DNA from: Oscillospiraceae bacterium
Lineage (GTDB): Bacteria; Bacillota; Clostridia; Oscillospirales; CAG-272
Length of the DNA: 34,631 nt
Assembly (NCBI GenBank): GCA_015064545.1
Contig: SVSA01000015.1
Coordinates: 1-34,631, forward strand
Direction: 5' to 3'
Part shown: positions 29,383 through 31,907 of the stretch, piece after piece
Numbering within the stretch: position 1 is the first letter of the stretch
Layout of the letters: each line of letters opens with the position of its first letter
Program-made: the position numbers and the translations under genes
The notes under the pieces: model-generated
What the model was told of the DNA's origin: nothing
The model's input: only the letters and a program-made list of their open reading frames with translations
Databases searched by the model: none

Positions 29383-29411
29383 TTGATTTATTCATAAAAA
29401 TGTGGTATACT
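29383..29411 (+). promoter_or_regulatory. Sigma70 promoter for structured leader/lipoprotein gene
   Basis: TTGATT - 17 nt ending TGG - TATACT. Confidence 0.7.
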
Positions 29412-29417
29412 AATACT

Positions 29418-29613
29418 GCTAAACCAACTTAATAACTTCAAAAGACACCTGTTTTTCTATGGGGATACTATACCCTTTTTGTCTTTTACATAGTGAATTT
29501 GATAAAAATGCAAATTCCGCTTGTAAAAGACAGGGTGATCTTGTTATTTCAAGTTGGTTTAGCGACTTGGAGTTTGCGTTTTTTGTGCGTTGGCTCCGGT
29601 CAGCGCACTTTTT
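29418..29613 (+). ncRNA. Structured leader or small ncRNA candidate: nested hairpin plus terminator
   Basis: gctaaaccaactt(29418-29430)/aagttggtttagc(29551-29563); gtcttttaca(29481-29490)/tgtaaaagac(29522-29531); gaattt/aaattc; terminator-like stem 29585-29608 followed by TTTTT. Confidence 0.55.
29585..29613 (+). terminator. Terminator-like hairpin just upstream of the lipoprotein SD
   Basis: gtgcg t tggc tccg gtca g cgcac TTTTT. Confidence 0.5.
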
Positions 29614-29630
29614 AATTTCAGGAGGACAGT

Positions 29631-31907
29631 ATGAAAAGAATTATAACTTCGTTGTTCACACTTATTGTAGCTTTCACTATGATATTGGGGCTGACTTCTT
29701 GCAAGAGTGAAGAAGAAAAATTAGTAGATCAGCCTTCTGAATCTTATATTATAGAATGCTTACAAAAAGTACCTTGCATCATAGAAATTGAAGCGGTTAC
29801 CGAAGATAACGACCCCATAGGTCAATTAAATAAGCCCGGTGGATATACAGCTCTCGTGTATTTCTCATACGAACTGGTTGATCAGGAAGAAGTATATGGA
29901 GATGATTTGATAGACAAAGGCACAGATGCTGGCGGATGTATAGAGGTTTATACTACAGAAAAGGATGCTAATAAGAGAAACGAATATTTGGCAGCATTTG
30001 ATGGCGGAGTTCTGACTTCCGGCTCTCATACCGTGGTTGGTACAATCGTAGTTAGAACTTCTGATGAATTAACTGCAACTCAACAAAAATTATTAGAATC
30101 AAACATTATCGCTGCTTTGCAAGGTCAAGATGACAAAATTGTTGCTCCAAAAACCAATTCAAATAATAATGACAGCAACGATGATTCTAATAATGACGAT
30201 GATCCCCCTGCTCAACCAAGCGGTAATACAAAAGAAGATGGCGTAAACGATGCTGAAAAATTTGCAAACGAGTTTGCAACAGAATATCCTAACGATTATT
30301 TAACTCCTAATTACATAACGGAATATTTAAGAGATGTATTGGGGTACTCTGAAACGATAGCGGTTTACGCTACGGAGAACTGTAATATCAGTTGGGCGAC
30401 TCATGCTAAAAAATATGCTCAAGTTTATTTGACCTATGAAGAAGAATTCGGCAGACCTGCGAGCTGGTGGAATCCTTCGGATATTGAGGATATGTTGCTG
30501 GAGGATGGTTTTTCTTATGACACCATTGATGCAACGATGGCAACCATTGATTGGACAGCCCAATCAAAAAAATATGTAAAGCATTTGTCTGAATTTTACG
30601 ATACATTTAATCGTCTTGATGCAAGAGGTTATTTGGAAGATATCGCTGCTAATGAAGCTGGTGTGAACTATCTTTTAGAAAATAGCGGCGTGAATTGGAA
30701 ACAACACGCGCTAAACATGGCAAACGAATTGTGGACAGAATATAGTTCGCAAGGATATTATGAAGATAAAACTGTAGAGTTTATTCTGACAGACATACGC
30801 GAAGAGCTATCTTCCATTTGGGAATATACCCAAGCAGAAATTGATTATGCTATTCAAAACATTACCATAGATAGATGCCGTCATACAAATTTACAGACAT
30901 TAAGTGCTGTTGCCGCAACATGTACGGCTACGGGATTGACCGAGGGCAAAAAATGCAAGGATTGTGGTGAAACTATAATAGAACAATCTACAATCCCTGC
31001 AAGCCACACAGAAGTTGTGGATGAAGCGGTATCTGCCACTTGTGAAAATACTGGATTATCAGAGGGTTCACACTGTTCTAAATGCGGAGAAATAATTGTT
31101 GCACAGCAAGTGCTTTCCATTGTAAATCACTCATTTAACAGTGGTTACTGCCGATACTGCGAATGTGAAGAATATACAACTGGACTTGTATTTACAGAAA
31201 TTACAGGAGGATATGCTGTCACTGGATACAATGGAACAGCCTATTCCATTAAAATTCCTTCTGTATATAAAGATAAAGCAGTTGTTTATATAGACGATTC
31301 TGCTTTTAAAGGAAAATCTTCAATCACTTCGGTTGCTATGGGGGATAATATTACGAGCATGGGAACCAAAGTGTTTAGCAATTGTACCTCTCTTACATCT
31401 ATCAAATTAAGTGAGAATCTAAGTGCTATAGGCGACTATGCATTTGAAGGATGTTCAAAACTATCAAGTGTATCCGTGCCTAATTCGGTGGAAAAAATCG
31501 GAAACTATGCATTTAGCGGTTGTACAAAGCTAAGCAAAGTTGTTTTTGGAACAGGATTAAAAACAATAGGAAAATATTCATTCTCAAACTGTTCGGCTTT
31601 AGAATATGGTAATAGTTATACCAAGTTTACAATCCCCGACACAGTCGAAAGAATCGAAAAAGGAGCATTCAATAATTGCACCACTCTATCAAACAAAGGC
31701 ATGCTTTACATTCCTTCGTCTGTTACATATATTGAGTGTGGCGCTTTTACTGGATTTGAACTAAACGATATTGGTTTTAGTGATGGCACAGGATGGTATT
31801 ATTACAAATCAGAAACAGCCACGGGAACAAGTGTGGATATGAGATATACTTCTAATAGCTACACATACTTGAGCAAAACATATTCAGGCTATCTAATAAA
31901 AAAATAA
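29631..31907 (+). CDS. Lipoprotein: Ltp-like N-terminal repeats, CxxCG modules, BspA-type leucine-rich repeats
   Basis: Lipobox GLTSC; repeated W..HA.KYA / W..QSKKY / W.QHALNMA; CKDCGETI, CSKCGEII; YAFEGCSKLSSVSVPNSVEKIGNYAFSGCTKLSKV. Confidence 0.85.
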   Translation: MKRIITSLFTLIVAFTMILGLTSCKSEEEKLVDQPSESYIIECLQKVPCIIEIEAVTEDNDPIGQLNKPGGYTALVYFSYELVDQEEVYGDDLIDKGTDAGGCIEVYTTEKDANKRNEYLAAFDGGVLTSGSHTVVGTIVVRTSDELTATQQKLLESNIIAALQGQDDKIVAPKTNSNNNDSNDDSNNDDDPPAQPSGNTKEDGVNDAEKFANEFATEYPNDYLTPNYITEYLRDVLGYSETIAVYATENCNISWATHAKKYAQVYLTYEEEFGRPASWWNPSDIEDMLLEDGFSYDTIDATMATIDWTAQSKKYVKHLSEFYDTFNRLDARGYLEDIAANEAGVNYLLENSGVNWKQHALNMANELWTEYSSQGYYEDKTVEFILTDIREELSSIWEYTQAEIDYAIQNITIDRCRHTNLQTLSAVAATCTATGLTEGKKCKDCGETIIEQSTIPASHTEVVDEAVSATCENTGLSEGSHCSKCGEIIVAQQVLSIVNHSFNSGYCRYCECEEYTTGLVFTEITGGYAVTGYNGTAYSIKIPSVYKDKAVVYIDDSAFKGKSSITSVAMGDNITSMGTKVFSNCTSLTSIKLSENLSAIGDYAFEGCSKLSSVSVPNSVEKIGNYAFSGCTKLSKVVFGTGLKTIGKYSFSNCSALEYGNSYTKFTIPDTVERIEKGAFNNCTTLSNKGMLYIPSSVTYIECGAFTGFELNDIGFSDGTGWYYYKSETATGTSVDMRYTSNSYTYLSKTYSGYLIKK

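Follow-up and report, generated by a model that had tools for sequence, protein, structure and literature searches.

We report that a nested hairpin in front of a lipoprotein gene of an uncultured Oscillospiraceae bacterium (GenBank assembly GCA_015064545.1, contig SVSA01000015.1, positions 1 to 34,631 of the forward strand, hereafter the window) is a copy of an RNA family, present in many uncultured gut Clostridia, that probably acts in cis as a transcription attenuator with a riboswitch-like layout. The switch seems to decide whether the polymerase stops or reads through into genes that often encode surface lipoproteins or small exported proteins. Comparative sequence supports its closing helix (P1), the rod shape, the terminator, the pairing between two strands termed S and D, the antiterminator and the orientation of the gene. 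The elements in the window are as follows.

29383..29411, + strand: sigma-70-type promoter TTGATT-17-TATACT (boxes 29383-29388 and 29406-29411), predicted +1 at about 29418
29418..29430, + strand: P1 5' arm GCTAAACCAACTT, the predicted 5' end of the RNA; partner of 29551-29563, supported by covariation
29431..29548, + strand: variable rod enclosed by P1, with P2, a 5'-side bulge and P3; homologues have different sequences and an equal rod shape
29431-29436/29543-29548, + strand: P2, AATAAC/GTTATT and onwards, as given in an earlier note on this DNA
29461-29475, + strand: 5'-side bulge of the rod with GGGGATACTATACCC, from the predicted fold
29481-29490/29522-29531, + strand: P3, GTCTTTTACA/TGTAAAAGAC, from fold and sequence
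29495..29517, + strand: P4 tip hairpin GAATTT/AAATTC (arms 29495-29500/29512-29517), which contains strand S
29504..29518, + strand: strand S, AAAAATGCAAATTCC (written AAAAAUGCAAAUUCC), P4 loop and 3' arm, complementary to D over 15 bp
29551..29563, + strand: P1 3' arm AAGTTGGTTTAGC, supported by covariation
29563..29601, + strand: putative antiterminator, CUUGGAG (29566-29572) with CUCCGG (29594-29599), longer in the local fold; -15.8 kcal/mol, supported by covariation
29569..29583, + strand: strand D, GGAGTTTGCGTTTTT (written GGAGUUUGCGUUUUU), immediately 3' of P1; partner of S, S:D and P1 together making a pseudoknot
29585..29613, + strand: intrinsic terminator, stem 29585-29608 plus T5; -16.6 kcal/mol, supported by covariation
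29620..29625, + strand: Shine-Dalgarno sequence AGGAGG, a few bases past the T-run
29631..31907, + strand: putatively regulated gene (ATG at 29631) for a 758-aa BspA-type leucine-rich-repeat lipoprotein (PF13306 LRR_5, E 1.4e-39; lipobox LTSC)

The earlier note, made from the letters of this stretch, had described a nested hairpin of 146 nt that begins at the predicted transcription start, with a terminator-like stem and T-run between it and the Shine-Dalgarno sequence. All of its sequence elements lie where it had placed them, and the terminator is a strong one; a stretch of 6-7 nt separates the -10 box from GCTAAACCAACTT. For the leader (29418-29615) the predicted folding energy is -71.2 kcal/mol, whereas dinucleotide-shuffled versions average -39.7 +/- 4.0 (z -7.8, none of 200 as stable). 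The terminator is well above chance (2 found, 0.1 expected). The promoter taken alone is not above chance (3 found, 1.9 expected), but it is supported after all by the comparative data, since 107 of 120 homologues carry a sigma-70-like promoter with TTGACA/TATAAT-like boxes; in these, P1 usually begins 4-7 nt past the -10 box, i.e., at +1. The neighbour upstream of the leader is a divergent peptide deformylase gene, and this promoter therefore reaches the lipoprotein gene only through read-through of the terminator. Two paralogues of the leader in the same genome (the three copies are about 68% identical, with fold z of -7.8, -7.5 and -7.3), as well as long-range pairings of D with S and with the terminator, were absent from the earlier note; one paralogue precedes a gene for a hexapeptide acetyltransferase, the other a gene for a further LRR_5 protein.

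Homologues were first sought with the pattern TGCAAATTCC-N38-68-GGRGTTTGC, which fixes only S and D. It matched in 17 of 146 relatives, in which the reversed control pattern had no match, and, within the GTDB species collection, in over 120 stretches, for the most part from metagenome-assembled genomes of gut Clostridia; a few of the latter matches are chance, without any other family feature, and 127 members were left after filtering. With covariance models for the family (R1) and for a shorter subfamily of about 160 nt with the same scheme (R2), the family was found by R1 in 89 of 196 relatives (66 of 148 among those of good quality) and, in the genome samples on which the class-level distribution rests, in 67 of 291 genomes of the class; in a 299-genome sample of the phylum the only match with either model was the bacterium's own genome. 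By R1 a genome has up to 10 copies and by R2 the maximum is at least 12; true numbers may be higher, as no more than 12 candidates per genome were scored. Nearly all members share one order: promoter, P1, a variable rod that has a long bulge on its 5' side, P4, the P1 3' arm, D, a terminator whose loop is mostly CUUCGG, the Shine-Dalgarno sequence and a same-strand gene that usually starts about 55 nt past the core. In the long subfamily, the GGGGAUACUAUACCC bulge (29461-29475 in the window) belongs to the rod segments with better conservation.

The earlier note had asked for covariation, and P1 with the terminator, S:D and the antiterminator each proved to exceed all 500 shuffles. For P1 and the terminator, 97.8% of the cells are paired and 228 show double changes. 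Because the first search had fixed S and D, their pairing was tested on set A5, which consists of covariance-model hits aligned by R1, a model without S:D pairs. Here 97.0% of S:D cells are paired, with double changes in 8 of the 15 pairs (31 cells) and 0/500 shuffles on all five measures, while slid controls reach 28-64%. Among the exchanges between members are AAAAAGTACAAG/CTTGTACTTTTT and AAAAATGCCGG/CCGGCGTTTTT, and variants form their own S:D duplex at an average of -20.6 kcal/mol vs. -17.7 with swapped partners. The first half of D also pairs with the CUUCGGU region of the terminator (10 pairs, 96.8% paired), and the covariation of this antiterminator comprises 48 double-change cells, with 6 pairs on A5. 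In the shorter subfamily the scheme is plainer, AAAAAUGCAC pairing with either GUGUAUUUUU upstream or GUGCAUUUUU downstream, although for its 20 sequences some of the shuffle measures do not stand out. Mean energies are -16.8 kcal/mol for the antiterminator, -16.5 for S:D and -14.5 for the terminator (S:D in the window: -16.8, next to the values listed above), a balance which, going by these calculated values, is switch-like. S:D, D with the terminator, and S within P4 are mutually exclusive, and it is for this reason that the arrangement points to a transcription attenuator: a conserved structured leader with the gene on the same strand, an intrinsic terminator ahead of the Shine-Dalgarno sequence and an antiterminator exclusive with it, the last on comparative evidence.

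The RNA would start at 29418 and fold into a rod closed by P1, whose tip hairpin P4 holds S. D would emerge ahead of the 3' arm of the terminator and would have two possible partners, S and the terminator's 5' half. In the OFF state, capture of D by S would prevent the antiterminator, so that the terminator would close and transcription stop after about 195 nt. In the ON state S would stay in P4, the free D would form the antiterminator first and the polymerase would read into the gene. We infer that the switch works co-transcriptionally with the states assigned in this way, and that the choice would be set by a signal acting on the rod, be it a small molecule or a protein. A small molecule may, tentatively, be this trigger. 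The diversity and surface bias of the controlled genes lead us to favour a signal in wide intracellular use over a pathway metabolite. Rather doubtful, in our view, is the alternative in which only the trigger of the attenuator differs, with a protein (antiterminator or anti-antiterminator) binding to the rod or its bulge. The diverse downstream genes and the long variable rod with few fixed loop motifs would fit protein recognition, but a search, although not exhaustive, found no candidate, and LoaP, a NusG paralogue acting on leader hairpins, is unlikely: nearly all relatives, the bacterium itself included, have one PF02357 gene, NusG being single-copy in nearly all of 98 relatives, carriers of the leader included. 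LoaP/dfn-hairpin leaders (PMC12691694) resemble the family in having a leader hairpin, a terminator and an UNCG-type loop (here in the terminator), and differ from it in this single NusG.

Several points weigh against an attenuator of this kind. What is known of it here comes from comparative sequence and predicted folds, and only sets A4, A5 and A7 test the strands that the first search had fixed. In the 20-member A7 alone, S:D is less even (covariation score 0/500, two other measures 67/500 and 228/500), and the shuffle controls ignore relatedness. Since a straight rod holds S too far from D, S:D needs a bent rod, with the bend presumably at the bulge, a plausible control point; releasing S from P4 costs the rod in the window about 8 kcal/mol. 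Apart from S, D and the GGGGAUA-UAUACCC bulge there are few conserved unpaired nucleotides, which leaves no obvious aptamer core. The analysis identified neither a ligand nor a trans factor, and the downstream gene families were too diverse for a shared function to name a ligand. That no signal is known would also suit a passive leader, in which the terminator is constitutive and partial and the 5' rod does no more than stabilise the RNA, its 5' end sealed in P1 and possibly shielded from 5' decay; yet such a leader would not need pairings that are conserved, exclude each other and are balanced in energy, and we consider it quite unlikely.

Next to a terminator-controlled riboregulator, the earlier note had offered a stand-alone RNA reminiscent of 6S. 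The former reading is borne out by the homologues, the gene orientation and the covariation of antiterminator and sequestering helix, while the latter found no support, the leader having no match to the 6S RNA model (RF00013) at gathering score. An RNA with its own promoter, a closed rod and a terminator would indeed yield a discrete product of about 195 nt, and the terminated product might additionally act in trans. However, the Shine-Dalgarno sequence follows the terminator by a few bases with no space for a promoter, the genes are overwhelmingly on the same strand, and antiterminator covariation would be purposeless. Moreover, the note had suggested looking for a canonical 6S gene elsewhere, and separate candidates were found in six of eight same-genus genomes searched (two above the cut-off), and five of these six also carry the leader. 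As to action in trans, S occurs in the bacterium's own genome (82% complete) only in the three elements, and D once more, with a mismatch. We thus regard it as very unlikely that the gene simply happens to be preceded by a stand-alone small RNA, whether 6S-like or of another type. The scan for 6S and riboswitch models proposed in the note came back empty: the window and 19 homologous loci had no match at gathering score among the 4227 families of Rfam 15, that of the T-box included, and at E up to 5 the leader had only chance miRNA matches with E > 1.

The note had also named identification as a miniature inverted-repeat transposable element (MITE) as a refutation. A mobile element or cassette whose inverted repeats fold might account for the many copies, for tandem copies (L214, G372:C14), for one copy in a phage scaffold and for related leaders preceding the same gene family in several genomes. 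But near-identical copies were not found, the three own-genome copies being just about 68% identical; compensatory changes preserve the helices, and the order of promoter, terminator and gene is fixed. Mobility as the explanation is therefore most unlikely, although leader and gene may travel as a joint unit. Tandem leaders occur at L214 (304-517 and 618-827), where a very short open reading frame (ORF) follows the first, as if a duplication of leader and gene had been followed by the loss of one of the genes, and at G444:C80, G372:C14, G300:C29 and G364:C22. In two loci of one genome (L005 1595-2056 and L237 392-853; G010 C42 and C53) the same TCTTGATGTCCCATAAC... interrupts the terminator loop (CTTC), with a TnpV-like ORF behind it, which suggests insertion of a transposon into the terminator hairpin. 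No match to the leader was found in plasmids, and in phages there was a single copy, on a human-gut phage scaffold (L295 338-532, MT835503.1), where the gene start resembles EcoRI-type adenine methylases behind two chromosomal leaders (L241, L261).

Although diverse, the genes behind the attenuator show an excess of signal peptides, lipoproteins and BspA leucine-rich repeats. A signal-peptide-like start was found in 86 of 184 distinct downstream proteins, compared with 56 of 431 neighbouring ones (p 3e-18), and a lipobox in 42 compared with 17 (p 6e-12), proportions that are rough as the calls come from our own regular-expression predictor. LRR_5 is the commonest Pfam family downstream (17/80 and 4/84), and others are zinc ribbons, SHOCT, LiaF-like, AMP-binding, S-layer, TnpV and EcoRI-type methylase proteins. 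In many genomes the leader precedes a gene for one recurrent small cysteine-rich protein (CLGNGEQGFECCCDECDYYLLCF; L214, L236, L238, L240, L242, L245, L249, L252, L255 and L256); the one member scanned had no Pfam match.

Transcription-terminating riboswitches with a pseudoknotted aptamer are known, with layouts of the fluoride/crcB, preQ1 and SAM-II type. The family shares with them the 5' leader, the structured domain, a pseudoknot strand set against an antiterminator and the terminator just before the Shine-Dalgarno sequence; unlike them, it lacks an Rfam 15 match, has a long rod from +1 and precedes very diverse, surface-biased genes. It resembles 6S RNA in its bulged closed rod and length of about 195 nt, but continues into terminator, Shine-Dalgarno sequence and gene. 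The trpB motif (PMC11109978), an orphan terminator-linked motif of the Breaker surveys, is likewise a leader of Bacillota with a covarying hairpin, terminator, antiterminator and varied downstream genes; it is also found in Fusobacteria and has a preference for genes of amino-acid transporters, which sets it apart from the family here, with one class and other genes. We found no description of the family in the open-access literature, supplements and subscription journals lying outside the search. The kind, an attenuator or orphan riboswitch-like leader, is already known, while the family and the swap of S and D on a rod starting at +1 appear to be new.

It is possible, although we advance this with reserve, that the family is a new class of riboswitches responding to a widespread intracellular signal. 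Gut Clostridia would then probably hold thousands of copies, ten or more in some genomes, and the switch would coordinate surface lipoproteins, leucine-rich-repeat proteins and small proteins that are exported or rich in cysteine. It would rank among the more abundant undescribed cis-regulatory RNAs of uncultured gut Clostridia. The covarying exchange between S, D and terminator gives precise, testable mutants. For organisms beyond the reach of cultivation, the family would name a regulon made up of surface and unknown proteins, and it would be a handle on the unknown signal.
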